Source: Fibrobacterota bacterium (GTDB lineage Bacteria > Fibrobacterota > Fibrobacteria > UBA11236). From it: 52,711 nt of DNA. Both the position numbers and the translations under genes were made by a program. Shown in pieces: positions 17,600-40,398 of the stretch. The stretch covers positions 1 to 52,711 of the forward strand of contig CANKII010000010.1 in assembly GCA_947482115.1 (NCBI GenBank). The letters are read 5' to 3'. The notes under the pieces are model-generated. The model was not told the origin of the DNA. It worked only from the letters and a program-made list of their open reading frames with translations, and searched no databases. The first letter of the stretch is position 1, and each line of letters opens with the position of its first letter.

Positions 17600-17628
17600 A
17601 GAAAACGGAAAAGGGTTCAGGAAAAGCC

Positions 17629-20684: not shown

Positions 20685-21424
20685 AACAAATTCCTTCGAA
20701 AGTGCAACTGTTTCATACTTGCATTGTCAATGAGGTTTATCCCGATGTAGGCCTCTCCGTGGTTTCCATTCTCGAACATCTCGGAATTGAAGTTGAAGTT
20801 CCCCTCGAACAAACCTGTTGCGGACAGCCCGCCTTCAATGCCGGGTTCCATGTCGATGCACGCAAGGTGGCGCGACACACGATCGATTTGCTTTTAAGCA
20901 CCGAAGGTCCCATCATCATTCCTTCGGGTTCCTGTTGCGACATGATATCGCATCAATATCATCTTCTCTTTGAAGGCGACAAAGAATACCTCGACAAATC
21001 CCATGAACTTTCCGAACGCTGCTATGAGTTCAGCCGGTTTTTGGTGGATGTCATGGGCATTACGAATCTGGGATCGCGCTTCAAAACAAAAGCCGCGTAT
21101 CATCCCTCCTGCCACTTGATGCGGGGTTTGGGAATCAAGACGCAACCGAAAACCTTGCTCGCAGGTGTTCAGGATCTGGAATACGTTCCGTTCAAGGATC
21201 AGGAAGAGTGCTGCGGCTTCGGGGGAATGTTCTCCGTCAAAAATCCCGGAATCTCCACCGGTATGATGGAAAACAAATTGAAAAACATTGAAGCTTCCGG
21301 TGCTGAAACCCTGACGTCCTGCGACATGGGTTGCCTGATGCATTTGGAAGGCGGCCTGCAACGGCATGGCTCCAAAATCAAGGTCAAACATCTCGCGCAG
21401 ATTCTGGCCGAAGGACTTCCCTGA
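20681..21424 (+). CDS. lutA: L-lactate utilisation protein A, CCG-domain iron-sulfur subunit
   Basis: A 247-residue protein of the LutA/YkgE family. Two cysteine-rich CCG domains are seen: TCCGQPAFNAG (near 46-56), and the HPSCHLMRG block followed by EECCGFGGMFSVKNPGIS (about 177-194), with CDMGCLMHLEGG at the end. LutABC oxidises L-lactate to pyruvate at the cytoplasmic side of the membrane. Here it would consume lactate released by the aldolase/dehydrogenase fusion. The start overlaps the regulator stop, and its own stop overlaps the lutB start (TGATG). The length is normal for the family (about 240). Confidence 0.92.
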   Translation: MKQIPSKVQLFHTCIVNEVYPDVGLSVVSILEHLGIEVEVPLEQTCCGQPAFNAGFHVDARKVARHTIDLLLSTEGPIIIPSGSCCDMISHQYHLLFEGDKEYLDKSHELSERCYEFSRFLVDVMGITNLGSRFKTKAAYHPSCHLMRGLGIKTQPKTLLAGVQDLEYVPFKDQEECCGFGGMFSVKNPGISTGMMENKLKNIEASGAETLTSCDMGCLMHLEGGLQRHGSKIKVKHLAQILAEGLP

Positions 21425-22851
21425 TGTCGCATTTTCTGGACCGTGTTGAAACCGCCCTGCGCGATGATCATTTGCAGGGTGCACTGCACAGTGCCACCGA
21501 GCGTTTGTGGTCACGTCGATCCGCCGCGCTTGACGGATTGGAAAACTCCGACACCATCCGCGACATGGCCCGGCGATCCAAACTGGGATTGCTGCGGGAT
21601 TTGGCGGGCAATCTCGAAACCTTTGAAAAGAATTTGATCCGCAACGGCATCAAAGTGCATTGGGCGCAAAACGGAAAAGAAGCCAATCGCATCGTCGTGG
21701 AAATCGCCAGAAAAAGCGGATGCAAACGGGCGGTCAAGTCGAAGTCCATGGTCACGGAAGAAACGCATCTCAATCACGACTTGCTGGAAGCCGGACTGGA
21801 TGTTCTGGAAACCGATCTCGGCGAATACATCGTGCAGCTCGCCGAGACCACGCCTTCGCATATCATCCTGCCCATCATTCACATGACCCGGCAGGATATC
21901 GGCAAGATCATGCACAACCGGATTTCCGTGCCTTACACCGACAGTCCTGAAGAACTGGCAAAGATCGCACGCGTCAAATTGCGTGAAGCTTTTCTCTCGG
22001 CAGATCTCGGCATCACCGGTGCCAACTTCGGTGTCATCGATTCCGGCGCCATCTGTCTGGTTTCCAATGAAGGCAATGCACGACTCGTGACAACGCTTCC
22101 TCGTGTGCATGTGGCCATCATGGGCATTGAGAAATTAGTGCCTTCACTTGCAGATTTGGATTTGATGATCAAAATCCTGGCCCGTTCCGCCACGGGTCAA
22201 AAGATCACGACTTACACTTCACTGGTTTCAGGACCACGTCGACCCGGTGAACTCGATGGACCGGAAGAAATGCACGTCGTACTGCTCGACAATGGCCGTA
22301 CCAATATTCTCGGCGGTGACCTCGCGGAAATTCTCGGCTGCATTCGCTGCGGTGCCTGTCTGAATGCCTGTCCGGTTTACAAGAACATCGGCGGTCATGC
22401 TTATGGCGACACCTATCCCGGCCCGATAGGCGCGATTGTCACGCCCGGTTTGCGCGGACTGGAAAATTGGAAGGAACTTCCCGACGCGAGTTCCCTATGC
22501 GGAGCATGCCGCGAAGTGTGTCCGGTGCGTCTGGACATTCCGCGCATGCTGCTTAAACTGCGTCAAACAGGCGTCGAAGAAGGCCGCTCACCTTTCACGC
22601 TGAAGTTTATCATGAAGGGCTTCGGGATGGTCGTTTCCCGTCCCTGGCTTTATCGACTTTCCGCGCGCTGGGGTGGGCGGCTCGCAAGAGTGGTGGCCAA
22701 AGCCGGATGGATCCATAAACTGCCGGGTCTCGGCGGAGGCTGGACGCGTTCGCGCGAAATGCGCGCACCGGTGGCAAAATCTTTTCAGGATTTGTGGAAG
22801 GAACGGGGTTCGACAGGCTCACCCACCGGCGGGAGGGGCAAAAATGGATAA
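21424..22851 (+). CDS. lutB: L-lactate utilisation protein B, 4Fe-4S protein
   Basis: A 475-residue LutB/YkgF homologue. The large N-terminal DUF162/LUD-type domain includes SKSMVTEETHLNHDLLEAGLDVLETDLGEYIVQL (about 103-136) and TGANFGVIDSGAICLVSNEGNARL. Two ferredoxin-like clusters follow: CIRCGACLNACPVYKNIGG (about 306-324) and CGACREVCPVRLDIP (about 360-374). It transfers electrons from lactate oxidation. The last 17 residues (ERGSTGSPTGGRGKNG and neighbours) are low in complexity and are encoded by a dispersed hairpin repeat plus flanking GC-rich sequence, so the original stop was probably upstream. It overlaps lutA by one base and lutC by eight bases. Confidence 0.92.
   Translation: MSHFLDRVETALRDDHLQGALHSATERLWSRRSAALDGLENSDTIRDMARRSKLGLLRDLAGNLETFEKNLIRNGIKVHWAQNGKEANRIVVEIARKSGCKRAVKSKSMVTEETHLNHDLLEAGLDVLETDLGEYIVQLAETTPSHIILPIIHMTRQDIGKIMHNRISVPYTDSPEELAKIARVKLREAFLSADLGITGANFGVIDSGAICLVSNEGNARLVTTLPRVHVAIMGIEKLVPSLADLDLMIKILARSATGQKITTYTSLVSGPRRPGELDGPEEMHVVLLDNGRTNILGGDLAEILGCIRCGACLNACPVYKNIGGHAYGDTYPGPIGAIVTPGLRGLENWKELPDASSLCGACREVCPVRLDIPRMLLKLRQTGVEEGRSPFTLKFIMKGFGMVVSRPWLYRLSARWGGRLARVVAKAGWIHKLPGLGGGWTRSREMRAPVAKSFQDLWKERGSTGSPTGGRGKNG
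22805..22824. repeat. Dispersed hairpin repeat, member 3, within the lutB 3' end
   Basis: Stem GGGT, loop TCGACAGGCTC, stem ACCC. It shares the core TCGAC-N3-GCTC with the other members. It is translated as part of the lutB C-terminal extension, in frame and without creating a stop. Confidence 0.7.
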
Positions 22852-23491
22852 GGCCTCACGCACTTCCATCCTCGCCCGCGTGCGGCAATCGCAGATTCGC
22901 GGTTTTATACCCGAATCTCCCGAAGGCCTTCCCGATGGATTGGTTGCCAAAAAAACAGACCCGGCAGATTTGCTCTTTCGCTTGCAGGAAGAGTTCAATC
23001 TTCTCGGAGTGAAAACTTTCATTGAGGCTTCCGAAGAAGCTGTGTGCGATCGAGTCCAAAAATTGATTGCGGGAAAATCCGTACTCAGTTGGGACTTGGA
23101 TCAATTGCCTTATGGTTTGGGAAAAGGTTTGGAAATTTCCCTGCAAAACCAAACCGTTTATTACGGCCGCGATTCCAAAGAAGATCAAGCCAAAGCGGAG
23201 ATTGGTTTGACCGGTTGTGAAGCCGTGCTGGCTGAAACCGGAAGCCTCGCCATGATCTCCGCAACCGGAAAACCCCGTACCGCCTCGCTGCTTCCTTATG
23301 TTCATGTCGTCGTCATTCGTCGTTCGGATATTGTCATGAGCATGGGTGAATTCTTGGAGAAGCACAAATCCCGGGAATGGCTGCCCTACCTGGTTTTTAT
23401 CACCGGCCCCAGCCGCACTGCGGACATTGAATTGTCGCTGACCTTGGGTGTTCACGGTCCCGGTGAAGTCATTGCCGTGATTGGATCTTAA
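22844..23491 (+). CDS. lutC: L-lactate utilisation protein C, LUD domain
   Basis: A 215-residue LutC/YkgG homologue with one LUD domain. Key stretches are TGCEAVLAETGSLAMISATGKPRTASLLPYVHVVVI (about 122-157) and GPSRTADIELSLTLGVHGPGEVIAVI at the C-terminus, both characteristic of the family. It is the third part of the LutABC lactate oxidation complex. The start chosen is ATG 22844, preceded by GGGAGGGG, inside the last codons of lutB; longer frames upstream merely read through lutB. It is the last gene of the rhamnulose/lactate operon. No convincing rho-independent terminator is seen in the 174 bp that follow. Confidence 0.92.
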   Translation: MDKASRTSILARVRQSQIRGFIPESPEGLPDGLVAKKTDPADLLFRLQEEFNLLGVKTFIEASEEAVCDRVQKLIAGKSVLSWDLDQLPYGLGKGLEISLQNQTVYYGRDSKEDQAKAEIGLTGCEAVLAETGSLAMISATGKPRTASLLPYVHVVVIRRSDIVMSMGEFLEKHKSREWLPYLVFITGPSRTADIELSLTLGVHGPGEVIAVIGS

Positions 23492-25850: not shown

Positions 25851-27722
25851 ATGAAACAATGGAAACTTTTTTGCCTGTGTGCTTTGGTGTCGGCACCCAT
25901 TTACGCCCAGTTCACCTATCCCAGCTGCAACCCCCTCCAGCAATCCGAATTCCAAGCCACGGAATTGTTCAACAAGACCGGAGCAAATTCGGCGCAAGCG
26001 ACCAACTCCGGTCTGAATGAACCCGTGCAATTCGATGTTCAGGGCGTCTATAACACCAACGGCGACAGCGTCCTTTACACCAACATCTATTTCGTGGAAA
26101 GAAAGGGGAAGGTCAAGTATTACGACGGCCTAGCCAAACGGGTGGATAGCATCGGATTCATTCCCAACTGGGGGTACCAATCCAGCAATAACAGCAATGA
26201 CAACGGGCTGATGGGCATTGTCCTGGATCCCAATTTCAATACCAACAAATGGATTTACTTCTGGTACACCCCCACCATTCCTGGCGCAGCGGCCACCGGT
26301 GCCAGCAGCAACGCCAACCGGAGATTGCGCCTGTCGCGTATCACCCTGACCGCGCAAAACAGGCTGGACATGGCCTCGGAAAAGATCCTGATCGATGTGC
26401 TGGGATCCAAAACGGATCAATACCATTGCGGTGGCCCCATGACCTTTGATCGCAACGGCGACCTCTGGGTGACGATCGGCAACAACAGCAATGATCTCAA
26501 CGGAAGCGGCAGCCAGTATGCGGGGCAAACCAGCACCTCCCCCACGGCGACCGACAGCAACAACAGCGGCGAATGGGGATCCGCCAACACCGCCAGCATC
26601 CGAGGCGGTGTAATCCGCATCCACCCTGACAATGCCGCCACTACTGTCCGCACCGATCGCAGCGGAACCTATGGCCCCGGTTATACCGTTCCCGCCGGAA
26701 ACTTCGGCGATTATTGGGCGGGACAATTCGACCAAAGCAACCCCACGTTGGCAGCCCAGTACCGCGACCCTTCCAAGGTGCTTCCGGAGGTGTATATCAA
26801 GGGAACACGCAGCAATTATTCCGTTGCCGTTCATCCCACCAAAGGCTGGCTGGCATGGGGTGACGTCCAATATAACGCCACTAATGACGAATACAATCTG
26901 GTCACCCATCCCGCGTTCACAGGCATGCCCTATTTCATGGCAAACAACACTCCGACTCCGGCGGGCTCCATTGTCCTTCCCACTGGTCACAGTGCTGCCA
27001 CACCCATCAATGCATCCCTGATGAATAGCGGCGTCCGAAATCTGCCTCCCGCCACCCCAGCGCTTATCTGGTACGGTACCACAACAACCCAAACCACCAT
27101 GAACAACAACGTGGCCATCAGCGGCCCGATCTACAGCTACAATCGCAACCTGAAGTCCAGCGTCAAATTCCCGCCGCATCTGAACAACAGCTGGGTTCTC
27201 ATGACCGTGTATGGATCACCCTCCAGCGGCCAGATGTATATCGCCATGCTGGACAGCATCAATCCCGTCCTGCAGGGAACACCCCAACAACAGGGCACCG
27301 CCGGCGTCGTGCGTTTCAACGTCCGGAACCCGCTACAGGCCAAATATGGTCCGGAAGGCGCCCTGTACATCCTGAATTATGGCAGCACTGGTGCGTATGG
27401 CTCCGGAAACAATCCCGGCATATCGCGCATCAATTACACGGGAAGCTGCCAGCTGGCCGCCGTTCCCATTGCGAAAAACACGCGTGCCGCAAATTTGAAT
27501 GTTTCCATGTTCGTGGACGGTTTGGTCGTGCATGAAGGTGGTTCGCATGAATTCTCCATGATTGATTTAAACGGTCATCAAATTTTCACGGTGAAAGGCA
27601 TCGGTGAAACCCGTTATTCCTTCCCCAAATTGTCCGCGCAGTTTGGATTCAAGAAGGGTGTGTATCTCGCACGGGTTCAATCCAACCAGGGCGTGTTTAC
27701 CCGGAAAGTGTCCCTGCTTTAA
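25851..27722 (+). CDS. Secreted glucose/sorbosone-dehydrogenase-like beta-propeller with sorting domain
   Basis: A 623-residue secreted protein. The signal peptide is MKQWKLFCLCALVSAPIYAQ. The core (about 30-530) is a PQQ-type sugar dehydrogenase beta-propeller: GLMGIVLDPNFNTNKWIYFWYTP (about 123-145), HCGGPMTFDRNGDLWVTIGNNSND (about 192-215), GGVIRIHPDN and GTRSNYSVAVHPTKGWLAWGDV (about 318-339). The C-terminal 80 residues (HEFSMIDLNGHQIFTVKG, FKKGVYLARVQSNQGVFTRKVSLL) resemble a type IX sorting domain. Such proteins oxidise free sugars at the surface or in the periplasm when loaded with PQQ; whether this one is catalytic is not shown. The ribosome site AAAAGGAG precedes the ATG. The stop overlaps the stop of the convergent TPR gene. 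Confidence 0.82.
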   Translation: MKQWKLFCLCALVSAPIYAQFTYPSCNPLQQSEFQATELFNKTGANSAQATNSGLNEPVQFDVQGVYNTNGDSVLYTNIYFVERKGKVKYYDGLAKRVDSIGFIPNWGYQSSNNSNDNGLMGIVLDPNFNTNKWIYFWYTPTIPGAAATGASSNANRRLRLSRITLTAQNRLDMASEKILIDVLGSKTDQYHCGGPMTFDRNGDLWVTIGNNSNDLNGSGSQYAGQTSTSPTATDSNNSGEWGSANTASIRGGVIRIHPDNAATTVRTDRSGTYGPGYTVPAGNFGDYWAGQFDQSNPTLAAQYRDPSKVLPEVYIKGTRSNYSVAVHPTKGWLAWGDVQYNATNDEYNLVTHPAFTGMPYFMANNTPTPAGSIVLPTGHSAATPINASLMNSGVRNLPPATPALIWYGTTTTQTTMNNNVAISGPIYSYNRNLKSSVKFPPHLNNSWVLMTVYGSPSSGQMYIAMLDSINPVLQGTPQQQGTAGVVRFNVRNPLQAKYGPEGALYILNYGSTGAYGSGNNPGISRINYTGSCQLAAVPIAKNTRAANLNVSMFVDGLVVHEGGSHEFSMIDLNGHQIFTVKGIGETRYSFPKLSAQFGFKKGVYLARVQSNQGVFTRKVSLL

Positions 27723-29542
27723 AAACCGCTTTTAACCTTTGCATCGCTGAGATTTTGACGGGCGCTGGCGTTGGTGGAATCCAACGCCAGCGCTTTTTGA
27801 TAATAGGCCGTCGCGATGGATGCATTGCCCCGGGCATCCTGAATCATTCCCAGATAATTTAACGCGCCGGAGTGATTCGGAGAAAGCTGAAGGGTTTTTT
27901 TGGCGTACTCTTCCGCCTCCTCGATCCGGTTTTGTTTCAGGAGCGAAGAAGCCATTCCAAAAGTCAAATCCGGATTCTCCGGTTCCGACTTCAAAGCCGC
28001 CTGAAATTGCCCGGTGGCCAGGAAAGGCTGGTCGAGTTTTAAATAAAGAAAGGCGAGACTTTTTCGCCCCACCATGTCGGAAGGATCCAAATCCACCGAG
28101 CGTTGATAATGTTCCGCCGCCTCACGAAGATCCCCCTTCTTGTAAAGGATATCTCCGAGGAACAAATGCCCCACCGCAAAGTCCGGTTTGTATTTGATGG
28201 CCAGCCCATAGTGTACCTCGGCTGAATCCAGAAGCCCACGTTCGCTGTAAGAAGTCCCGGTGAAGAAATGCGCCAGCCAGCTATCCGGTATCGCCTTGGT
28301 TAGGTTCAGCATTTGGGATTCAAAATTGGCTGTCCATCCACGATGTTGGGCAAACCCGAGATAACCCACGGGAATGATGAAAAAGGCCCACTTCCAGCCA
28401 TGCCACGCAAAAGAACCTCTGCGTGTTTCGGCGGACTGTACTTGTTCATCTTGAACGCCAAGTCCCTGGCGAATGCTTTTTTCCCTGATTCTCCAAATGA
28501 ATCCGTCGTAATAGAAGTGAAGTAACGCGGAAGCTAGGGTAACGCGAAAAATCCACTGGGTGGATCCGTTTGCCAACATGAATTTTTCCGGCATATTAAG
28601 ATCGCCAAAGGAGGTCACGACTCCGATATATCCGTAGGCCAGGACCAAAACCGAATAACAAGCCAATCTCTCCCAACCCGGAAGGAAGAGCATTTTCTCA
28701 ACGGGACTGACGTTCAAACTTTTATCCACGCGTTGGCGCTGGAAAAGCCATACCAACACATCATACTGAACATCGTGAAAGATTTCCCACATAATTACAC
28801 CCAAGAGAAGGTTGTTGAGGGTCACCGTGCAAAACCACCAGAATGCAAAGCTTGAGGCCAGCGTGAGCAATTTGACCGGGCTGGGAGAATGACCGGCTTT
28901 CCATTGTTGAAAAAGGTTGATTAAAAACAAGCACGTGATAAGCAACGTGGAGACACCCCAGAATTGTCGGAAGAGGATGAAAGCATGGGGTGGGATCAAA
29001 AATCCGCCCGAGGCGTAGAACTGGGTGACAAGCGAGAATTGCTTGGCGGGGGAATGCAAGATGGCGAGTCCGAACCAAGTCAGGCACATTAACCAATCGA
29101 GGCGAGCCGTAACGGGCCGAAACGATTTTACCTTGGAGTCGTAAATCCGCATAAAACCGTTTATCTGCATGGCACCATGCCAAGTACCCCAAGCCACCGT
29201 GGCGCAGATCAATGCGTTTAAATTGAGGAATGAATAAAACCCGCAAACCAGAATCAACAATAAAGGAATGACGGTAAAACGGAGCTTGTACTGTTTAAAT
29301 AAATTGCGATCCGAATAAGCGCGAATAAATCCGGGCAAGTGGTGTCCAAAGCCTCCAAAACCGAGCACACAAATTCCGAGGGTTTCCAGTGGAAGGCGAT
29401 CTTTGACGGCAAAAATCAAAGGGATGATGAAAAGTGGCGTGAGAATGAAAAAAATCAGGTCCCGCTTGGGACCCAGAATCCAAAGATTCCGGTGCGCTGA
29501 TAAAGGATTTAGTAATTCTGTTCCTTGTATTTCTGATCGCAT
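27719..29542 (-). CDS. Polytopic membrane protein with conserved histidine motifs and C-terminal TPR repeats, paralogue 1
   Basis: A 607-residue inner-membrane protein of a family I do not recognise. About ten hydrophobic segments fill residues 28-400. Five histidine-bearing motifs shared with the paralogues at 36893 and 38611 are GHHLPGFIRAY (His67, 68), WHGAMQINGF (His122), LDW-MCL-WFG with a following LHS (His163), EIFHDVQY (His256) and LLHFYYDGFIWRIRE (His342). A TPR region covers about 424-600 (four to five repeats, for example AEHYQRSVDLDPSDMVGRKSLAFLYL). Conserved histidines within or beside membrane helices suggest bound metal or haem; this is an inference. It is encoded alone between two secreted/envelope genes and diverges from the porin gene at 29616. 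Confidence 0.75.
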   Translation of the reverse strand: MRSEIQGTELLNPLSAHRNLWILGPKRDLIFFILTPLFIIPLIFAVKDRLPLETLGICVLGFGGFGHHLPGFIRAYSDRNLFKQYKLRFTVIPLLLILVCGFYSFLNLNALICATVAWGTWHGAMQINGFMRIYDSKVKSFRPVTARLDWLMCLTWFGLAILHSPAKQFSLVTQFYASGGFLIPPHAFILFRQFWGVSTLLITCLFLINLFQQWKAGHSPSPVKLLTLASSFAFWWFCTVTLNNLLLGVIMWEIFHDVQYDVLVWLFQRQRVDKSLNVSPVEKMLFLPGWERLACYSVLVLAYGYIGVVTSFGDLNMPEKFMLANGSTQWIFRVTLASALLHFYYDGFIWRIREKSIRQGLGVQDEQVQSAETRRGSFAWHGWKWAFFIIPVGYLGFAQHRGWTANFESQMLNLTKAIPDSWLAHFFTGTSYSERGLLDSAEVHYGLAIKYKPDFAVGHLFLGDILYKKGDLREAAEHYQRSVDLDPSDMVGRKSLAFLYLKLDQPFLATGQFQAALKSEPENPDLTFGMASSLLKQNRIEEAEEYAKKTLQLSPNHSGALNYLGMIQDARGNASIATAYYQKALALDSTNASARQNLSDAKVKSGF

Positions 29543-29615
29543 GGTAATTGCAAATTAAGTTAACCCAAAATTGGGAATCGGGGTTATTCTAATTGTCACT
29601 ATGAGGCAATCTTGG

Positions 29616-31274
29616 ATGAAACAATACTTAGTCGGAAGCTTTTTGCTGGTGAGTCTAATTCCGGGTAAGATTGTCGCCGACATCCCTATCGATAAGCTCC
29701 GGGGCGAAGCAGTCTCCGAAATGGGAAGCATCGTCAATGGCAGTTTCGGCGGAGGTTCGGTCGAAAATCAATACCTAAGTCGACTGGGTGTGAATATCAC
29801 GGCGTCGGATACGGTGAATGGAAAACTGAGGCTGACCGTGGGCGTTGGTGGAATTTTCTACCAACCCCTTCCGATTGGGGGTTTCTGGCAAAAGTCTCTT
29901 AAGTTTGCCCCTAAAATCACCGAGGCCTCTTCGGAGCTCATTTTTGCTCCCAACTTGAGTTTAGAGCAGGGATATTTTCCCCTCAAATACAATTCTCCCG
30001 CGATGGATCTGGGCGAGTATCTGCTTAAAAGTGAATCTTATCCGACCTACATCAGTACCGGGGGATGGACCTGGGTGGACAGCGCCTACACCCGCGCTTT
30101 TGGAATGCGATTAAAAGCATCCCATTTAGGTGGAAAATTTCAGCATGAAGTCGGGATCTATATGGAGTTGAATAACGCTCCTTATTACGATTTCACGCCC
30201 GCCTATCTTTTTTCCTTGCGGCCGTCGAAGGGCATTGAATTCGGTGGAGGCATCGCGTTGCGGCGCTGGTTCAGCCCCAATTCGGGGAACACGAGCACGA
30301 ACCCCAAGGATGAAGCTCTGGCTGCGGCGCAATATGTGACGATTGCGAACTTTCCCGAAGTCCAGAATCAAGCGGCGGTGTTTTACACCTATGAAGACGG
30401 CACGGGTAACCGCGTCGGTGGCCAGGCGTTCGCGGTCTGGAATCCTGGATCCGGTTTGGATACTGCGGGACTCCTTGCGGGTAAAACCAACCCCAGGGTA
30501 TCGAGTGTCCAAATGATCCAAGACGGCAGCCCTGCGGGTTCGCGGACCGGGATCAAGAAATTTTTGCAAAACCTGGCCGGATGCAGCGCGGATTCGAGCA
30601 AATGCACGACCTACCTGAGCGCAACGGACACCGTGAGCCAAGTGGATGCCACGGGTGTTGCGGCGGGAACGCCTGGTGCCGCTGTAATAACCAACACGGA
30701 GACCATCACTCGCAAGGCTATCAATGTAATGGCCCATGTGAATTTCAACTTCACCAAAATATTCGGGTGGGAAGAGCGCTACGGCTTCTGCGAACTCTAT
30801 GGAGAATGGGCCGTGCTTGGCATGCAAAACCAACCGGTTTATTACCAGAATATTTTACAGCGCATGCCAGTGATGGTAGGGGTACACATACCCACTTTCG
30901 GTCTGCTTGATCTTTTGGCTCTGGAAACCGAATATCTCGACAATCCCTATCCGGATAGTTACCAGCAGTTGGCTGGCCAACAATTCGAACAGTTGACGGG
31001 GGTGGACGAGGCCATTCCGGACATGGATTATACCTTGCGGAAATTCACGCTTCCCTCAGTGCATCGCGATGATTGGAAATGGTGCATGTATGGCGTCAAA
31101 ACCATTCTACCCGGCGTGAAACTGAAAATACAGGTGGCGAATGATCATGCGCGCATGCAATACTTCGATGTCGACGCGCTGGCTGGAGCAGCCTTCGGAG
31201 CAATTTCGGCCCAACCGCAAACCACGAACATGCGCCAGTGGTATTACGTGGCCCACTTGCAGTGGGGTTTCTGA
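29616..31274 (+). CDS. Outer-membrane porin-like beta-barrel, copy 1
   Basis: A 552-residue probable outer-membrane barrel. The signal peptide is MKQYLVGSFLLVSLIPGKIVA, with cleavage before DIPIDK. The rest is rich in alternating aromatic strands and turns (LRLTVGVGGIFYQPLPIGGFWQKSLKFAPKITEASSELIF, LEQGYFPLKYNSPAMDLGEYLLKSESYPTYI) and ends in YYVAHLQWGF with a terminal Phe. It is paralogous to the next gene. The start is ATG 29616, with GAGG about 10 bp upstream; ATG 29601 is in frame but would spoil the signal peptide. Its function may be uptake of oligosaccharides or anchoring of surface enzymes; no substrate can be read. Confidence 0.7.
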   Translation: MKQYLVGSFLLVSLIPGKIVADIPIDKLRGEAVSEMGSIVNGSFGGGSVENQYLSRLGVNITASDTVNGKLRLTVGVGGIFYQPLPIGGFWQKSLKFAPKITEASSELIFAPNLSLEQGYFPLKYNSPAMDLGEYLLKSESYPTYISTGGWTWVDSAYTRAFGMRLKASHLGGKFQHEVGIYMELNNAPYYDFTPAYLFSLRPSKGIEFGGGIALRRWFSPNSGNTSTNPKDEALAAAQYVTIANFPEVQNQAAVFYTYEDGTGNRVGGQAFAVWNPGSGLDTAGLLAGKTNPRVSSVQMIQDGSPAGSRTGIKKFLQNLAGCSADSSKCTTYLSATDTVSQVDATGVAAGTPGAAVITNTETITRKAINVMAHVNFNFTKIFGWEERYGFCELYGEWAVLGMQNQPVYYQNILQRMPVMVGVHIPTFGLLDLLALETEYLDNPYPDSYQQLAGQQFEQLTGVDEAIPDMDYTLRKFTLPSVHRDDWKWCMYGVKTILPGVKLKIQVANDHARMQYFDVDALAGAAFGAISAQPQTTNMRQWYYVAHLQWGF

Positions 31275-31314
31275 ACATGACGCGATCGGGGCCATTCTTG
31301 AAAGGAAAAATTCC

Positions 31315-32805
31315 ATGAAAACCACCCATTGTCTGGCATTCGCCTGCGTCGTGGGCTTTGCGAATGCCGATAAAGGCGCGCCCGTCGTCACGGAACGGAA
31401 TCTCTCCATCGCCGCTTTTGTCGATGCCGGACAAGTCGTGCAAGGAAGCTATGTCAACGATGACGGACACGATCCCAAGACTTTGCATGATATTTTCATG
31501 AACCGGGATGGCATTGCGCTTACCTATTCCGGCACGCTGAATGGAAACGTTCACATGAACATCGGGGTCGGAGGCCTTTTCTGGAAACCGTTTTTGGGGA
31601 TCCCCGGAAATGCTTCGACCAAGAAAATCAATTTCGGGCCGGGCATTTCCGAGGCATCCACGCAATACGATTATAATCCTCGTCTTACAGTGAAATTCGG
31701 TTACTTCGGCTACAAATACAATCCCGATGCAACGAATCTTGGGGAATATTTATTGCGCAGCGAGGCCTATCCAACCATTTTGCAAAACGGAACGGTTGGA
31801 GACTGGGTTTGGCTGGGGAACGAATACAAGAGCATGGGAGCCAAGGTGACATGGGATTTATTGAATGGCGCTTTCCGCCAGGATTTTTTGATCTTCAGCG
31901 ATTTTTACGGGAGCCCTCTTTTTGATTTCTCCCCCTCTTACGTTGCGACCTGGAAAGTGAGCAAGGCGTTTGAGATCAGTGGCGGATTTTCCCTTCATCG
32001 CTGGCTACCCATCAAGCCCAGTGAAACAACCCCCAATCAACCCGGTAACATCTATGCCGAGGTTCCAAATTTTCCGGCCTTGTCGGATCCGGCCGACGCT
32101 GTTCTCGGTTTCAATGGTGGAACGTTGAAAGCGATGGAAAGCCAAATCGTTAACTTTGTCGACTCTTCAGGAAATCCCATTGTTAAACAAGAGGTGGATG
32201 CTAAAGGTCGAACGATATTCATCGTGAATTCCACGGGCGATACTTTGCGCCCCACCACCGAAACCAAGCTGACCTTCAAGGCGATTGAAGTGATGGGTCG
32301 CGCTTCCTTGAATCTTTCCAGTCTATTGGGACTCGAAGAAAAAACGACCGGCCCGTTCAAGCTCTTCGGTGAAATTGCCATTTTGGGATTGGAAAACCAA
32401 CCTTATTTTTACGAGGACAGGACCCAACGCATGCCCATCATGCTGGGCGCGGATATTCCGACCTTTAATTGGCTTGATTTGTTTTCCGTTCAAGTGGAGT
32501 ATCTGAAAAATCCCTTCCCTGACAACAACTTCTCTCAATTTCAGAATACGGTGCCCCAACCGCAATTGCCGTCCGATAACCCGGCCATTTACAAGCTGAG
32601 GGAACAAGCAGGCATCTATGATCGCGATGATTTTAAATGGTCGATTAACCTCCAAAAAACCATCGTGAGCGGCTGGCGGGCTGATTTACAAGTCGCCAAT
32701 GACCATTTACGAGTGCAAGATGAAAGCGCCCAGCCCTCATTTATGCCAGTAACTCAGGGAAAATCGGATTGGTATTACCTGTTAAGGTTCTTGTGGAGCA
32801 TGTAA
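31315..32805 (+). CDS. Outer-membrane porin-like beta-barrel, copy 2
   Basis: A 496-residue paralogue of the preceding gene, with signal peptide MKTTHCLAFACVVGFANA. Equivalent blocks are MNIGVGGLFWKPFLGIPG, INFGPGISEASTQYDYNPRLTVKFGYFGYKYNPDATNLGEYLLRSEAYPTIL, FEISGGFSLHRWLP and LFGEIAILGLENQPYFYEDRTQRMPIMLGADIPTF. The C-terminus reads DWYYLLRFLWSM. It is 56 residues shorter than copy 1, mainly through a shorter loop region between the strand at about 220 and that at 330. The ribosome site AAAGGAAA precedes ATG 31315. A longer frame from 31141 overlaps copy 1 and is rejected. The 40-bp gap suggests one transcript for the two barrels. Confidence 0.72.
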   Translation: MKTTHCLAFACVVGFANADKGAPVVTERNLSIAAFVDAGQVVQGSYVNDDGHDPKTLHDIFMNRDGIALTYSGTLNGNVHMNIGVGGLFWKPFLGIPGNASTKKINFGPGISEASTQYDYNPRLTVKFGYFGYKYNPDATNLGEYLLRSEAYPTILQNGTVGDWVWLGNEYKSMGAKVTWDLLNGAFRQDFLIFSDFYGSPLFDFSPSYVATWKVSKAFEISGGFSLHRWLPIKPSETTPNQPGNIYAEVPNFPALSDPADAVLGFNGGTLKAMESQIVNFVDSSGNPIVKQEVDAKGRTIFIVNSTGDTLRPTTETKLTFKAIEVMGRASLNLSSLLGLEEKTTGPFKLFGEIAILGLENQPYFYEDRTQRMPIMLGADIPTFNWLDLFSVQVEYLKNPFPDNNFSQFQNTVPQPQLPSDNPAIYKLREQAGIYDRDDFKWSINLQKTIVSGWRADLQVANDHLRVQDESAQPSFMPVTQGKSDWYYLLRFLWSM

Positions 32806-32923
32806 AAAACGAGAATTTCCGCAGAATCGCTAAAAACACACAATTAATTGAACGCCGAAATGCTTTTGCTTGTAAAAAAGAAACCTACGTTAGAATACTG
32901 GGCATGAACAGGAGGAGTTTGTG

Positions 32924-34177
32924 ATGACGAAAATTGAAATGCGCATACCAAAGGGATGGAACCTTGCCCTCGCTGCGGGGTTGTGTTTTGGCCTTGCCAA
33001 TGTATCTCAAGCTCAAACTGTGTCCCTTGCACAGCAAAGGACCGAAACCATCAACGGCCAGCAATACCTTTTGACCTCCAAATTGAAGTCCATCGTGCTT
33101 GGAGAATTCACTTTCGGATTCAATCATACGGTTGGATATCCGAATTTGGATTCGACGATCAGCCGTATCGGCAAGGCGGAAACTCCGGCTTGGACGGTAA
33201 CTCGGATGACGCAAGCTAGTCAGGTGACTTCGGCCAACCTGGCCAATTATCAGGTATTCTTTGCGAACTATATCTCAGGATTTGGCGGAGGAAGAACCGG
33301 TGGTTTCACTTCCGCCCAACAGACGGCCTTGCAGGATTTCGTGGAAACGCAGGGCAAGGGAATATTCCTGATGCATTCCTCCGGAGATTCGCCAGTAAAC
33401 ACCAGTTGGCCCTGGTATTCAACCACGCTGATGCCCAATCATTATACCGGAGAAGCGGGCGCCGGTTCATCGAATAGCACTGGAAAAGTCGGCATTTGGA
33501 GCCAGAACAACAAAGCGGCCAAATCGCATCCCATCATGGAAGGAATTGGTTGGGGTGGTACCAATCCCGATACCGTAAGCATTACGGGCATGGAGCTGCA
33601 TACCTTTGACAAGGCGATAACGAATTCCAGTATTACGCCTGTCAAGTGGCAGGGATTATTGGGGCTCAATGCGGCCACATGTGGCCGTGCGAATACCTGT
33701 TCCGGGGGTAGTTATAACTATACAACCGCCGGCGGTCCCGATGGATGGCCTATTTCCTGGACCTTCCCGGCGAAGAAAGGCAGTGTCGGTTATTTCATGG
33801 AAGGCCATGATCTCGTTACCATGAATAACATGACGAAAATCATTTGGGATAAGTATTTCAAACAGTTCATGTATTACATCGCAGGATACGACACTGTACT
33901 GGTCACCACCGGCATCAATAAATCGAGCCTCGATTTTTCCATAGATGCGTCCGGCATCACCTTCCACCCTGCCGAAGTGGGCGTTCTCATCAACAAGCCC
34001 GGAAATCATATCGTATCCCTCTACGACATCGCCGGCCACAAGGTCAAGGAAATGCGCGGCAGCCGCGTTCCCGTTGACTACAATTGGAGCGAAGAATTGA
34101 AATCGAAGAGTGGAGTTTATGTCATGCGCGTGTCCGTTTCCGGCGCATTTAAATCCAGGAGATTCTTCGTAAAGTAA
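32924..34177 (+). CDS. Secreted ThuA-like protein with sorting domain
   Basis: A 417-residue secreted protein. The signal peptide covers about 1-30 (NLALAAGLCFGLANVSQA, then QT). The core is ThuA-like, a glutamine-amidotransferase-like fold linked to sugar metabolism and common in secreted proteins of this kind of bacteria: SAQQTALQDFVETQGKGIFLMHSSGD (about 127-152), HPIMEGIGW, and GYFMEGHDLVTMNN. The C-terminal 85 residues look like a type IX sorting domain (GNHIVSLYDIAGHKVKEMRG, KSGVYVMRVSVSGAFKSRRFFVK). The start is ATG 32924, placed by GGAGGAG with correct spacing; GTG 32921 is too close to it. A terminator follows at 34200. The enzymatic role of ThuA domains is not well settled. Confidence 0.78.
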   Translation: MTKIEMRIPKGWNLALAAGLCFGLANVSQAQTVSLAQQRTETINGQQYLLTSKLKSIVLGEFTFGFNHTVGYPNLDSTISRIGKAETPAWTVTRMTQASQVTSANLANYQVFFANYISGFGGGRTGGFTSAQQTALQDFVETQGKGIFLMHSSGDSPVNTSWPWYSTTLMPNHYTGEAGAGSSNSTGKVGIWSQNNKAAKSHPIMEGIGWGGTNPDTVSITGMELHTFDKAITNSSITPVKWQGLLGLNAATCGRANTCSGGSYNYTTAGGPDGWPISWTFPAKKGSVGYFMEGHDLVTMNNMTKIIWDKYFKQFMYYIAGYDTVLVTTGINKSSLDFSIDASGITFHPAEVGVLINKPGNHIVSLYDIAGHKVKEMRGSRVPVDYNWSEELKSKSGVYVMRVSVSGAFKSRRFFVK

Positions 34178-34199
34178 TCCATACGTTTCATGGCCAATG

Positions 34200-34229
34200 A
34201 AAAGAGTCGGAGAAATCCGGCTCTTTTTT
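34200..34229 (+). terminator. Rho-independent terminator after the ThuA-like gene
   Basis: Stem AAAAGAGTCGGA, loop GAAA, stem TCCGGCTCTTTT with one G-T pair, continuing into a T run. Confidence 0.88.
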
Positions 34230-34277
34230 ATGTCCGGAATACTTTAGCCAAACCCCAATGAATACCTTATCACCATC

Positions 34278-35546
34278 ATGAAAGTCGCCCTGCAATATGG
34301 AAAGGGAGAACTCGAAACCGAGATCCCCTTTCGCAATGTCACCGTTTTAAGGCCCCGCTTCCTTGAAGGTTTACCGGACGAAGCGACATCCTTTCGCGAT
34401 GCCACCCGCAATCCTATTGGCGCGAAACCCTTGCGGGAATTGATTCACGCGAAAGACAAGGTCGCCGTGGTCATTCCCGATATCACGCGCGCCTTGCCGT
34501 CCGATCGCCTGCTACCGTGGCTGTTTGAAGAGCTCTCCCATGTTCCGGACTCCAACTTCACCATCATCAATGGTACCGGTTCCCACCGGGGAAACACTCC
34601 TGAAGAGTTGGAAGGGATGGTCGGAAAAGAAATCGCATCACGCTATCGCATCGTGAACCACGACGCCCATGATTCATCAACGTTGGAAATTGCGGGAACG
34701 ACTGCTGATGGCCGCGTCATAAAAATGAACCGGGAATATGTGCAGGCCGACAAGCGCATTGTGCTGGGCTTTATCGAGCCCCATTTCATGGCCGGATTTT
34801 CCGGAGGTTACAAGGGCGCGTTCCCGGCGGTGGCAGGAATCCGCGCCATCATGCATTATCACCGCGCCGAGATCATTGGCGATGCGCGCAGCACGTGGGG
34901 TGTTCTGGATGGCAATCCCACACAGTCGCAGGTGCGTGAATACGGAGCCATACTGCCTTTGCATTTTTGCGTCAACGTTACTTTGAATCATCGCCACCAA
35001 ATCACGCGGTTCTTCTGCGGCGATCCCATTGCGGCACACGATCAAGGATGCGCCTTCACCAAACAAACCGCCATGGTGCCCTGCAAACAGGCTTTCCCTC
35101 TCGTTATCACCAGCAACGGCGGTTATCCGCTCGATCAGAATCTGTATCAAGCCGTGAAAGGCATGTCCGCGGCAGCGCAAATCGTGGCACCGGGTGGAAA
35201 CATTCTCTGCGCCGCCTTGTGCAATGATGGTTTTCCCTCACATGGAAACTTCACGGATTTGCTGTTCAAGTATTCTTCACCGCGTGCTTTGCTGGATGCA
35301 ATCCTCAGTCCGGGCTTTCATGTGTTTGATCAATGGCAGGTGCAAATCCTCGCCAATGTTTTACTGAAAGCCGATGTATCCGTGTATAGCTCTTTGAATC
35401 CGGAAGAAGTAAAGCGGGCGCATCTGAATCCGGTTTCGAACATTGAATCCTTTCTGTCAAACGCATTGAAACGACTGGGACCGGATGCGCCCGTGGCCGT
35501 CCTGCCTGAAGGCCCCATGACCATTCCTTATCTCGAAAACGCGTGA
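34278..35546 (+). CDS. larA: LarA-type nickel-dependent 2-hydroxyacid racemase
   Basis: A 422-residue LarA-family protein (DUF2088). Typical blocks are VVIPDITRALPSDRLL (about 63-78), INGTGSHRGNTPEELEGMVG (about 96-115) and EPHFMAGFSGGYKGAFPAVAGIRAIMHYHRAEII (about 166-199), which carry the conserved histidines and the lysine that holds the nickel-pincer cofactor in lactate racemase. Family members racemise or epimerise lactate and various other 2-hydroxyacids. No larB, larC or larE cofactor genes are in the window. The stop overlaps the GTG start of the glycerate kinase gene (GTGA), so the two are translationally coupled. That pairing favours glycerate or a related sugar acid as substrate over plain lactate, although LutABC nearby keeps lactate possible. 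Confidence 0.85.
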   Translation: MKVALQYGKGELETEIPFRNVTVLRPRFLEGLPDEATSFRDATRNPIGAKPLRELIHAKDKVAVVIPDITRALPSDRLLPWLFEELSHVPDSNFTIINGTGSHRGNTPEELEGMVGKEIASRYRIVNHDAHDSSTLEIAGTTADGRVIKMNREYVQADKRIVLGFIEPHFMAGFSGGYKGAFPAVAGIRAIMHYHRAEIIGDARSTWGVLDGNPTQSQVREYGAILPLHFCVNVTLNHRHQITRFFCGDPIAAHDQGCAFTKQTAMVPCKQAFPLVITSNGGYPLDQNLYQAVKGMSAAAQIVAPGGNILCAALCNDGFPSHGNFTDLLFKYSSPRALLDAILSPGFHVFDQWQVQILANVLLKADVSVYSSLNPEEVKRAHLNPVSNIESFLSNALKRLGPDAPVAVLPEGPMTIPYLENA

Positions 35547-36880
35547 AATCAAATCCTTTCCTGAATTTCACAGAGCTTGCGATTTCACCCGCGAGGAAAT
35601 TTGCATTGGACGTCGCTGCCGCAGGATTGACCGCATTGAATCCGGAAACTTTGCTGCGGAAAGTTGTGCACCTAAATGAGAGTGAACTCCTTGAAATCGT
35701 GGGCCATTTTTTTCCCACAACGTCCGGAAGAATATTCGTCATCGGAGGAGGCAAAGCCGCCGATGTTATGGCCGCCGCATTGGAAAGTATTCTGACTCCG
35801 AAATCCATTACCGCCGGAATCGTGATTTGCAAAACACAATCCGCGCGGCCCCGCAAGATTCAAGTTCGCGAAGCCGGTCATCCCATTCCGGATCAACGCG
35901 GTTTGGACGCCATGAATGAAATCATGGCCATGAAGGACAAGTATGATATCGACAAGAACGATCTTGTCATTTGTTTGTTGAGTGGCGGAGCATCCGCCTT
36001 GATGCCTCTTCCCGCGCCGGGCATTACTCTTGAAGACAAACAAGCATTGACCCGTATGTTACTGGCCAGCGGAGCGGAAATCTCCGAAGTCAACGTGATT
36101 CGTAAACACCTATCGTCATCCAAGGGTGGAAAGCTGGGCCTGCATTTCGCCTCAGCTATGGTGATTTCATTAATTGTTTCGGATGTAATCGGAAATGATT
36201 TGGCCGCCATCGGTTCCGGCCCCACTTTTCCGGAAAAAACAACTCCTCAAGCTGCGGTGAAACTGATTCAACACTACGGATTATGGGACAAGATTCCCGA
36301 ATCTATCCAGCAGCATCTGAAATCCAATTCCGATCAACCCGTGATGAACGAACCGGAAAACTGTTTTAATTACATCATCGGTGACAGCAACACGGCTCTG
36401 GAAGCAATGAAGCATGAAGTAGAACAAAAAGGCAAACGGGTGTTGATGATTAGCAATGCTCTCAAGGGAGAACCTGAATCCACCGCCCGCGAATTGGCGG
36501 GAAATATTCTCGATGGAAAATACGGTGGATACGATGTCCTATTAGCCGCAGGAGAAACCACGCCCGCACTGCCGAACAATCCGGGCCAAGGTGGAAGAAA
36601 TCAACACTTTGCCGCCTCCACGCTATTGTGTCTGAAAGATCTTTCGAGAGACTGGGTGCATATCAGTCTTGGAAGTGATGGCTCGGATTATTTATCGGAT
36701 GTGGCAGGCGCTTTGGTGGATTCCAATGTTTTGGAAAAATCCCGCACTCTTGGATTATCTCTTCGGGATTATCTGGATCGATTCGACACCTATAACTTCT
36801 TCAAAAAAATCGGGAGTAGTCTGATTGAAACAGGTCCCACCGGAACCAATGTGGGCGACTTGATGATTTATGTGATTTAG
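35543..36880 (+). CDS. gck: Glycerate 2-kinase, MOFRL family
   Basis: A 445-residue kinase of the DUF4147/MOFRL type that converts D-glycerate to 2-phosphoglycerate. Motifs include VIGGGKAADVMAAALE (about 67-82), CLLSGGASALMPLPAPGITLEDKQALTRMLLASGAEISEVNVIRKHLSSSKGGKL (about 144-197) and AAGETTPALPNNPGQGGRNQHFA (about 335-357), the MOFRL signature region. The start is GTG 35543 within the larA stop; no ATG with a ribosome site is near. It could use the glycerate made by the dehydrogenase at 3337 and feed lower glycolysis. It is convergent with the TPR gene at 36893 across a 12-bp gap. Confidence 0.9.
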   Translation: MKSNPFLNFTELAISPARKFALDVAAAGLTALNPETLLRKVVHLNESELLEIVGHFFPTTSGRIFVIGGGKAADVMAAALESILTPKSITAGIVICKTQSARPRKIQVREAGHPIPDQRGLDAMNEIMAMKDKYDIDKNDLVICLLSGGASALMPLPAPGITLEDKQALTRMLLASGAEISEVNVIRKHLSSSKGGKLGLHFASAMVISLIVSDVIGNDLAAIGSGPTFPEKTTPQAAVKLIQHYGLWDKIPESIQQHLKSNSDQPVMNEPENCFNYIIGDSNTALEAMKHEVEQKGKRVLMISNALKGEPESTARELAGNILDGKYGGYDVLLAAGETTPALPNNPGQGGRNQHFAASTLLCLKDLSRDWVHISLGSDGSDYLSDVAGALVDSNVLEKSRTLGLSLRDYLDRFDTYNFFKKIGSSLIETGPTGTNVGDLMIYVI

Positions 36881-36892
36881 ACGGCTTTCGTT

Positions 36893-38611
36893 TCATCCCC
36901 CGGCAGCCATTAGCTTTTCCGCCTGTTCCAGTTTCTCGCGCGCACCAGAAAAATTGGGATCCAACTGCAAGGTCCGTTGCAGCCACGGAATGGCTTCTGA
37001 TACTTTGCGGTTTTGCATCAAGGCCGTGCCCACCAAATAAGACAGGTTTGCGTCATTGGGTTCATGCTCCGCCGCCGCCAGAAGATGCGGGACGGCTTCA
37101 AAAGTTCTGCCCTGCATCAGCAACAAAGTCCCCAAATGATCCTGCACTTCATAATCCGAAGAATCCAGTGCAGCGGCTTTGAGATAATGTTCCAAGGCCA
37201 AATCCAGTTTTTCCGAATGGAAATAAATATCCCCAAGCAACGCCTGCGCCCCTTCAAAATCCGGGTTGATGGAAACCGTTTTTTCAAAATGATCCGTCGC
37301 CCCATCCAAATCCCCTGCGGATTTTTTCATCAGGCCCAAAACAAAATGGACCTGCCAACTGTCGGGTATGAGATTGACCATATTTTCATATTGATTCACA
37401 AGAGGAATCGCATTTCCCCTGTATTCCGAAACACCCAGTAAAAATGCGGGAATGATGAAGAGAGACCATTTCCATCCAGATACTGTCAGCCATTTTGGAA
37501 AACCCACCGAGGTGGATGTAAGCACAGATCGGGCGGTTTTCTTTTCAATGCCAAGTCCCTGCCGAAACTCCCCCTCACGAACCCGCCAGATGAATCCGTC
37601 GAAATAAAAATGCAGAAGCGCGGAAGCGACAAATAATCCCGTCCAGAAATGAACCGTACCCGTTCCCGCATGAAGAAGATTTTGAGTCTGGGTGCTGGCA
37701 TAGTTTGCGGCCATGCCAAAATACCCATATCCCAATACCAGCAAGGCATAGAAGGCGAAACGCCATGCAACGGGTTGAAAGAGAAATTTCTCCGCAGGAC
37801 TTGCGGTGATCCCCTGCTCCACGCGCCGCTGATTGTAAACCCAAACCAGTGCGTTGTATTGAACATCATGAAATATTTCAAATAAAACCAAAGCCACCAG
37901 CAGATCGCCTACATAAGTCATCGCGAACCACCAAAAACCAAAACTGGATGCCATCAACAGAAATTTGACTGGGTTGGGTGGAATACCCGCACGGGTTTGT
38001 CTCCACGCATTGATGCCAAAAGCGATCGTTGTGCATACGATCAGAACATCCCACGTTTGTCGAAAAAGAAAAAATGCCTCTGGAGAAATCGACCAGCCAC
38101 CCGCGCCGTAAAAATAAGAGAACACCTCTATCAATCGTATGGAGGAATGCAACAGGCCACCACCAAACCAAAGCAGACACATGGCCCAATCCAGCCATGC
38201 CGTGATTGGAGAAATGGAGCCGACTTTGGAATCGTAGATGCGAAGGAAACCGTTGATTTGCATGGCTCCATGCCATACGCCCCAAAGCAGTAGAATCAAT
38301 TTGAGGCTTTGCAAATGATAAGTGGAAAAAATCAGGCATGTGGTGACGAACAAAACGGGTGCAAGAATAAAACGCATCCGAAACCGACGGAACAGAACGG
38401 GATCGGTATAGGCACGGATGAATCCGGGAAGATGATGTCCGATTCCACCGATGGCGAGAATGGCTGCACCAAATACATTCACATCGAATCGTGTCTTGGC
38501 CAGCCACATCAGCGGAATAATCCAGAGGGGTGCGAGCACGAACAAAGACAGATCCCGTTTGGGACCTAGAATCCAGAGACGGGGATTCAGGGACAGGGCG
38601 CGTGCGGACAT
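36893..38611 (-). CDS. Polytopic membrane protein with histidine motifs and TPR repeats, paralogue 2
   Basis: A 572-residue paralogue of 27719-29542. It opens NPRLWILGPKRDLSLFVLAPLWIIPL and keeps every shared motif: GHHLPGFIRAYTD, WHGAMQINGFLRIYDSKVGS, LLHSSIR, EIFHDVQYNALVW and LLHFYFDGFIWRVRE. About ten membrane segments are followed by a TPR region (about 395-565; ALEHYLKAAALDSSDYEVQDHLGTLLL). The start overlaps the stop of paralogue 3 (shared base 38611), so the two form one translationally coupled pair on the minus strand. Function unknown. The shared histidines suggest a metal or haem site; the TPR part probably recruits a partner. Confidence 0.75.
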   Translation of the reverse strand: MSARALSLNPRLWILGPKRDLSLFVLAPLWIIPLMWLAKTRFDVNVFGAAILAIGGIGHHLPGFIRAYTDPVLFRRFRMRFILAPVLFVTTCLIFSTYHLQSLKLILLLWGVWHGAMQINGFLRIYDSKVGSISPITAWLDWAMCLLWFGGGLLHSSIRLIEVFSYFYGAGGWSISPEAFFLFRQTWDVLIVCTTIAFGINAWRQTRAGIPPNPVKFLLMASSFGFWWFAMTYVGDLLVALVLFEIFHDVQYNALVWVYNQRRVEQGITASPAEKFLFQPVAWRFAFYALLVLGYGYFGMAANYASTQTQNLLHAGTGTVHFWTGLFVASALLHFYFDGFIWRVREGEFRQGLGIEKKTARSVLTSTSVGFPKWLTVSGWKWSLFIIPAFLLGVSEYRGNAIPLVNQYENMVNLIPDSWQVHFVLGLMKKSAGDLDGATDHFEKTVSINPDFEGAQALLGDIYFHSEKLDLALEHYLKAAALDSSDYEVQDHLGTLLLMQGRTFEAVPHLLAAAEHEPNDANLSYLVGTALMQNRKVSEAIPWLQRTLQLDPNFSGAREKLEQAEKLMAAGG

Positions 38612-40398
38612 CAGCGCCAGGCGTTTTTCGGGTCCAGCATGTAGGCGCGCCTGTAATACTCTTCTGCTCGGGCCGAGTCGCCCCGCATCCTCAGCGCGAC
38701 GCCCAGAAAGCTCCAGGCCTGAGGCTGTCGCGGATCTAATGCCAGGGTACTCTGAAGATAAGCTATTGCCTCTTCGGAGCGATTCTCATGCATCAAGGCG
38801 ACTCCAGTCAGGTAAATGAAGTTCGTGTCTTGAGGAAACCGCGGCGCGATCGCCAGCATTTGCGGCAAGGCTTCCTCGACGCGGTTGAATCTCATGAGGG
38901 TGGTCGCAAGATGTTCTCGCGTTTTAAAGTCGAGCGAATCCAGTTCCGCCGCGCGGAGATAATGCGAGAGTGCCATTTCATAAAGGCCGGCATAGGCCGC
39001 GACATCCGCAAGCTCCGCGTGCGCCGGCTGAAAGTCGGGGTCCAATGCCAGTGAGTGGGAGTATTCCTCGATGGCATCCCCAAAGTGGCTTCGGAACTTC
39101 TCAAGATTTGCAACCAGGTAATGAAGCCGCCCGCTTTCCGGGAGGATAGTGACGATATTCCGGTACTGATCCACCGCCGGAGGAATGTTTCCGTGGAGTT
39201 CAAGCGTTCCGAGTAACGCTACGGGGACGATGAAAAAAGCCCATTTCCACCCCGCCGGCAATAGCCTGGAGGGGCGTGAGGCCTGGAGAGTCTTCCCCCC
39301 CTTCGCTTCCTTTTTTCCTTCGATGCCCAGACCCTGGCGAAGTTCTTTCTCGCGCACCTGCCAGATGAATCCGTCGAAATAAAAATGCAGGAATGCCGAG
39401 ACCGCGAATAGGCCCGTCCAAAAACCGGCGGTACTCCAGGCGGGTTCCGCAAAATCCGGGGCCATCACCTTGGAATAGCCGGTGAAGACTCCCATCGTCC
39501 CATAAGCCAGTACGAGCAGCGTGTAGAGCAGAATGCGCCATGCGCCGGGTCCGAAGAGGAATGTCTCGAGGCGTCCCACGCCGACTCCCCGATCCACGCG
39601 TCTTCGGTTGTAGGCCCATACCAAGGCGTTGTATTGCAGGTCGTGGAAGATTTCAAAAATCAACAATCCAAATATCGGCTCACTGACCTTCACCATGGCG
39701 AACCAGAAGAATCCAAAGCTCGACGCCATCAGCAGGAATTTAACGGGGCTGGGTGCATGGCCCGCGCGCGTTTCCCTCCATGCGTTAACAAGGAATCCCA
39801 AAGTAACGCAGGCGGTAAGAACGTCCCACACCAGGCGAAACGCGGCGAAAGCGCCCGGGTCCAGTACGGGAAGCCCGGCGTTGTAGAAGTTCAATAGAAT
39901 GGAGGTCATGCGGAAATTGGAATGAAGCAGCCCCCCTCCGAACCAGACGAGGCACATGGCCCAATCCAACCGGGCAGTGAGCGGCGAGAAGGATCCCACC
40001 TTGGTGTCGTAGATACGGAGAAACCCGTTGACCTGCATAGCCCCGTGCCACGCACCCCAGAGCACCACGATAACGGCCAAGGTGTTCAGGTGCAGCAGCG
40101 AGAGAACGATGAACACCACGAGAAGAAACAGGGGGGCCGCTATGAAACGCGTGCGATAGCGCTGGAACAGTGCGGAGTCCGTATAAACGCGGATGAAGCC
40201 AGGCAGATGATGGCCCACTCCGACAAATGCCAGAAACATGGCGCCATAAATATTGAGGTCGATACGCGTCTTGGCCCACAGCATTATCGGAACGATCCAA
40301 AGCGGAACCAGGACGAAAAGGGCGAGGTCCCGCCCGGGACCCAGAATCCATAAACGAGAGCTTGGCTCTCGGGAATTGGATGCGGCCGTGGTGGACAT
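38611..40398 (-). CDS. Polytopic membrane protein with histidine motifs and TPR repeats, paralogue 3
   Basis: A 595-residue paralogue, first gene of the pair with 36893-38611. Shared motifs are GHHLPGFIRVYTD, WHGAMQVNGFLRIYDTKVGS, LLHSNFR, EIFHDLQYNALVW and FLHFYFDGFIWQVREKELRQGLG. The TPR region spans about 415-590 (ALSHYLRAAELDSLDFKTREHLATTLM, SEEAIAYLQSTLALDPRQPQAW). Its DNA is visibly richer in G and C than that of the other two paralogues, which suggests a different origin or age. No clear ribosome site precedes the ATG complementary to 40396-40398. It ends in TGATG overlap with the next gene. Function unknown. Confidence 0.75.
   Translation of the reverse strand: MSTTAASNSREPSSRLWILGPGRDLALFVLVPLWIVPIMLWAKTRIDLNIYGAMFLAFVGVGHHLPGFIRVYTDSALFQRYRTRFIAAPLFLLVVFIVLSLLHLNTLAVIVVLWGAWHGAMQVNGFLRIYDTKVGSFSPLTARLDWAMCLVWFGGGLLHSNFRMTSILLNFYNAGLPVLDPGAFAAFRLVWDVLTACVTLGFLVNAWRETRAGHAPSPVKFLLMASSFGFFWFAMVKVSEPIFGLLIFEIFHDLQYNALVWAYNRRRVDRGVGVGRLETFLFGPGAWRILLYTLLVLAYGTMGVFTGYSKVMAPDFAEPAWSTAGFWTGLFAVSAFLHFYFDGFIWQVREKELRQGLGIEGKKEAKGGKTLQASRPSRLLPAGWKWAFFIVPVALLGTLELHGNIPPAVDQYRNIVTILPESGRLHYLVANLEKFRSHFGDAIEEYSHSLALDPDFQPAHAELADVAAYAGLYEMALSHYLRAAELDSLDFKTREHLATTLMRFNRVEEALPQMLAIAPRFPQDTNFIYLTGVALMHENRSEEAIAYLQSTLALDPRQPQAWSFLGVALRMRGDSARAEEYYRRAYMLDPKNAWR

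Follow-up and report, generated by a model that had tools for sequence, protein, structure and literature searches.

Three paralogous genes and their setting

The window, by which we mean the whole 52,711-nucleotide stretch of DNA analysed here, carries on its minus strand three full-length open reading frames for related membrane proteins: paralog A (27719-29542, 607 amino acids), paralog B (36893-38611, 572 amino acids) and paralog C (38611-40398, 595 amino acids). In each case a membrane domain (28352-29488 in A, with 10-11 transmembrane helices; 37430-38581 in B; 39205-40356 in C) is followed by C-terminal TPR repeats, which score 62-79 bits against the Pfam TPR_2 cut-off of 27; the domain fusion described in an earlier note on this DNA, made from the sequence alone, is therefore borne out. 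The three proteins align end to end at 40-52% identity (B-C 52%, B-A 44%), and every motif quoted in that note as common to them recurs, in the same order, in the alignment. A whole-genome search revealed no fourth copy in the 2.7 Mb genome; the remaining matches were to TPR sequence only, with E >= 1e-7.

The stop codon of C and the start codon of B overlap as TGATG, an arrangement by which the two genes are predicted to be translationally coupled. A terminator-like hairpin (40488-40465) follows rpsG and separates it from C, so that C-B probably forms its own operon, apart from rpsG and as originally proposed. Paralog A sits 7.4 kb from this pair and does lie, as had been described, within a locus of secreted proteins.

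Moving rightwards along the plus strand, a secreted glucose/sorbosone-dehydrogenase-like protein (GSDH, PF07995; 25851-27722) with a type A T9SS sorting tail precedes A; beyond A, and divergent from it, comes a conserved pair of outer-membrane-barrel-like proteins, the first (29571-31274) belonging to no Pfam family and the second (31141-32805) showing homology from about position 31294. Next is a ThuA-like secreted protein (32921-34177) with a weak T9SS tail, its 29.4 bits falling under the Pfam cut-off of 33.4, and then a LarA-type nickel-dependent lactate racemase (34278-35546) and a glycerate 2-kinase (DUF4147 + MOFRL; 35543-36880), all on the same strand. GSDH, A, the two barrels and the ThuA-like gene thus stand side by side in the window. 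In each of the 10 sampled genomes of the same Fibrobacteria family, a ThuA-like gene lies no more than 4 kb from a family gene, and the barrel pair usually adjoins one too; GSDH is adjacent in three loci, and at locus L091 all of these appear as five co-directional genes (barrel, barrel, ThuA-like, family gene, GSDH).

The barrel-like proteins belong to a very large, unnamed family with no Pfam entry (20-72 matches per genome, pieces being counted apart), often encoded in tandem arrays (window 29571-32805; contigs C1, C2, C3, C8 and C12 of genome G000). The 20 best barrel matches all lie on contigs bearing a gene of the A-B-C family, for a profile that was itself built from these barrels. More widely, the family genes are surrounded in the window by genes for a class II aldolase/SDR fusion, an FGGY kinase and LutABC-like proteins (15506-23491) along with LarA and the glycerate 2-kinase (34278-36880), as well as a GntR regulator with a sugar-binding domain; together these have the appearance of a catabolic locus of the rhamnose-to-lactate type. 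Near the start of the window is a 640-amino-acid elongation-factor-G-like GTPase (247-2169; GTP_EFTU, EFG_III and EFG_C domains).

Fold, topology and invariant residues of the membrane domain

When A, B and C are compared with Pfam-A and NCBIfam, the TPR repeats alone are matched. The membrane domain finds no match in PHROGs, and its profiles retrieve only a chance match (E = 1.3) from PDB sequences. AlphaFold models, built on alignments of 15 sequences, contain ten helices for both the B domain (pLDDT 72, pTM 0.71) and the A domain (pLDDT 80, pTM 0.79), in accord with the approximate number given in the earlier note; Foldseek matched neither to the PDB at E <= 0.001 (best values 1.3 for B, 0.34 for A), nor the B-domain model to any entry in BFVD. 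Shorter, TPR-less relatives (see below) likewise belong to no Pfam or NCBIfam family, none of the metallo- and haem-proteins represented in Pfam, NCBIfam or the PDB matches the membrane domain in sequence family or in fold, and literature searches turned up nothing relevant on such a family or locus. The domain is thus an unnamed family with respect to Pfam-A, NCBIfam, PHROGs, PDB sequences and PDB folds, in line with the suggestion that it was undescribed; the profile match to a characterised family that would have spoken against this was sought and not found.

The loops between helices 2-3, 4-5, 6-7 and 8-9, together with the tail that follows helix 10, are strongly basic, and all others are neutral or acidic; net charges run from +1.6 to +4.0 for inside loops and from -0.4 to +0.1 for outside loops. 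This distribution gives good support to a predicted topology in which the N-terminus lies inside, the chain spans the membrane ten times to return inside, and an additional helix found in TPR-fused members (TM11; about residues 373-393 of B) then leads to a periplasmic TPR domain; the suggestion that the TPR domain reaches out into the envelope is therefore upheld, at the level of prediction.

Such a layout is shared with TMTC proteins and bacterial GT-C glycosyltransferases, which are also N-in, with 11 transmembrane helices and an exported C-terminal TPR domain (PMC7801869)—a likeness of predicted architecture, not of homology. It lends some weight, as do the invariant Asp and His residues described below, to the idea that the family comprises cytosol-facing lipid or cell-envelope transferases or hydrolases, in which His and Asp would serve as acid-base catalysts in place of metal ligands and the TPR domain would recruit envelope proteins. 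Membership of GT-C fails, however, on both loop motif and fold: the hallmark acidic DD/DE motif is missing from the first exported loop, where the best column is Glu or Asp in only 27 of 72 members, no Pfam transferase matches, neither model has a PDB fold match at E <= 0.001 (best 0.34), and the conserved residues of our family face the cytosol. We regard a transferase or hydrolase as rather improbable.

Conservation was assessed over 72 diverse members of the superfamily, with residues numbered by domain (full-length B minus 10). Exactly four histidines are invariant in all 72: H49, H104, H238 and H324, equivalent to H59, H114, H248 and H334 of full-length B, H67, H122, H256 and H342 of A, and H63, H118, H252 and H338 of C. 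D10, Q108, G111, Y242, D328 and W332 are also invariant throughout, and R56, Y58, D60, Y116, K119, D131 and K206 nearly so; the four histidines with D10, Q108, Y242, D328 and W332, set in about ten transmembrane helices, make up a recognisable signature of the superfamily. Five histidine positions had been put forward in the earlier note, and four of these stand; the fifth, in the 'LHS' motif, is His in 26 of 72 members and Cys, Gln or Trp in several Fibrobacteria copies, so that its conservation rules it out as a further ligand. The second histidine of the 'HH' motif is confined to TPR-fused members. Many short members have two extra histidines, giving HxxxxH on helices 4 and 8, and these are absent from the Fibrobacteria copies; apparent covariation of these residues (109 and 243), both present in most short members and lost in TPR-fused ones, was set aside, as it tracks the tree and is not independent.

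Helices 2, 4, 8 and 10 are co-directional, and each carries a single invariant histidine near mid-membrane, 11-16 residues in from its periplasmic end; in a post hoc test, random placement reproduced this depth and direction in ~0.05% of draws. Those on helices 2 and 4 lie 13 degrees from the conserved side of their helix, the relationship being less clear for helices 8 and 10 (53 and 63 degrees). Given their similar depth on co-directional helices, it is plausible that the four converge in three dimensions.

All of the conserved polar residues map to mid-membrane or the cytosolic side; across the 72 members none occurs in a periplasmic loop, where there is also no conserved acidic residue. 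This bears on the possibility of a proton-coupled sugar or sugar-acid transporter, with a path of His, Asp, Arg and Tyr through the ten helices and the TPR domain as a docking or regulatory appendage. The ten to eleven helices and conserved charged residues are in keeping with a transporter, the invariant residues would suit proton coupling, and the genes adjoin outer-membrane barrels and the apparent rhamnose/lactate-type locus. Set against this, no conserved polar residue lines the periplasmic half, neither a Pfam transporter family nor a PDB transporter fold is matched, and ten fully invariant residues, four of them histidines, in so diverse a family look more like a catalytic site than a transport path; we therefore think a transporter unlikely.

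A broad superfamily and the TPR fusion

The family extends well beyond this genome. A scan of GTDB contigs combined with whole-genome searches placed TPR-fused relatives in 10 of 10 sampled genomes of the window's Fibrobacteria family and in 0 of 158 other Fibrobacterota genomes. The Acidobacteriota contain TPR-fused members and also, commonly, shorter TPR-less ones of ~340-440 amino acids, the superfamily being present in 41 of 399 and 52 of 396 sampled genomes; the short type was looked for in Fibrobacterota and not found, and viral contigs, phages and plasmids yielded no relatives. With an hhalign E-value of 4.5e-29 over 325 columns, the two types are, by profile comparison, clearly homologous. 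The superfamily is accordingly broad, spanning Fibrobacterota and Acidobacteriota, and the family itself is well supported; a sizeable group of membrane proteins, missing from curated family libraries and the PDB, is hereby defined.

In a tree of the 72 membrane domains all TPR fusions fall on one side of a single branch (support 100/98), with the Fibrobacteria copies grouped together inside that side and the remainder of it made up of Acidobacteriota sequences. This suggests that TPR was fused to the membrane domain once, possibly with transfer between the phyla, the direction of which is unsure given the long branches and limited sampling. One distinct TPR-less subfamily (L165-L175; LIDVAHVWSTSFRVYFD ... 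IIHGVPYFALI ... LTHYVLDGFIWRRR), common in Acidobacteriota, has Gln and Pro in place of His109 and Gln241.

A putative cytosol-facing metallo- or haem-enzyme

Four invariant histidines make the suggestion of a metal- or haem-binding membrane enzyme a plausible one; the accompanying suggestion of desaturase likeness is not supported. Membrane fatty acid desaturases and hydroxylases (PF00487, PF04116) do have conserved membrane histidines towards the cytosol, but ours are four isolated residues with no paired HxxxH/HxxHH boxes, and there is no match at the level of Pfam or fold. Haem A synthase (CtaA/COX15; PF02628) carries single conserved histidines on even-numbered helices, and in this the family resembles it; here too, however, Pfam and fold matches are lacking, and ten helices stand against eight.

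The Brp/Blh beta-carotene dioxygenases (PF15461), polytopic membrane proteins with conserved intramembrane histidines, have the motifs GxPHGALD, HFG, HxxRH and PHhL, to which the four histidine motifs of our helices are loosely similar. We compared the family with five Brp/Blh proteins, all of them database records and four of the five confirmed by PF15461: hhalign returned probabilities of 0.3% and 0.1% with no full-length alignment, and motifs, length and helix count all differ. No Pfam match connects the two; a PF15461 search of the organism's own genome found nothing, but its controls were equally silent and it is given no weight here. Homology is rejected by profile comparison, and we hold even a strongly diverged relationship to be very improbable.

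The reading we favour, at somewhat short of even confidence, is an intramembrane enzyme that faces the cytosol, binds metal or haem, docks partners through its periplasmic TPR arm and helps to acquire or oxidise sugars; cofactor, substrate and docking are all putative. Ten N-in helices would pack to bring the four histidines together as ligands of a metal ion, or of one or two b haems, with the invariant Asp, Gln, Tyr and Trp and the nearly invariant Arg and Lys lying cytosolward of them; the resulting pocket would be accessible from the cytosolic leaflet and may be the site of an oxidation or oxygenation. One branch would then have gained the eleventh helix and the periplasmic TPR domain through the single fusion, and in this Fibrobacteria family the arm may dock the envelope partners encoded alongside—the barrel pair, the ThuA-like protein and sometimes GSDH—and so link the membrane enzyme with the uptake or oxidation of sugars. 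Haem-copper oxidase in 10 of 10 and ferrochelatase in 9 of 10 genomes of the Fibrobacteria family indicate that haem and oxygen chemistry would be possible in these hosts. Counting against an enzyme of this kind are the absence of any matching metallo- or haem-protein among those searched, and the fact that the Acidobacteriota relatives lack the sugar-locus partners (barrel pair, ThuA-like protein, GSDH) as neighbours.

A bolder version, which we put forward as speculation and consider unlikely, would place these proteins in a class of their own: intramembrane metallo- or haem-enzymes that face the cytosol, have a novel fold and occur across Fibrobacterota and Acidobacteriota, the TPR arm of one branch coupling inner-membrane redox chemistry to sugar capture at the outer membrane. 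As the absolutely invariant residues are few, the question of the cofactor is directly open to mutagenesis; should the family prove enzymatic, the handling of plant-derived sugars by abundant soil bacteria would include an additional step at the membrane.

The neighbours of the Acidobacteriota family genes are varied, with Oar-like barrels among them. Proteins combining seven CxxCH haem motifs with TPR repeats are encoded two genes away from members at three loci (L105:4721-6655, L114:4308-6494 and L116:4709-6895), and at a fourth (L106:9335-11206) a gene resembling GH106 alpha-L-rhamnosidase lies directly beside a TPR-fused member, an echo of the rhamnose context of the window.
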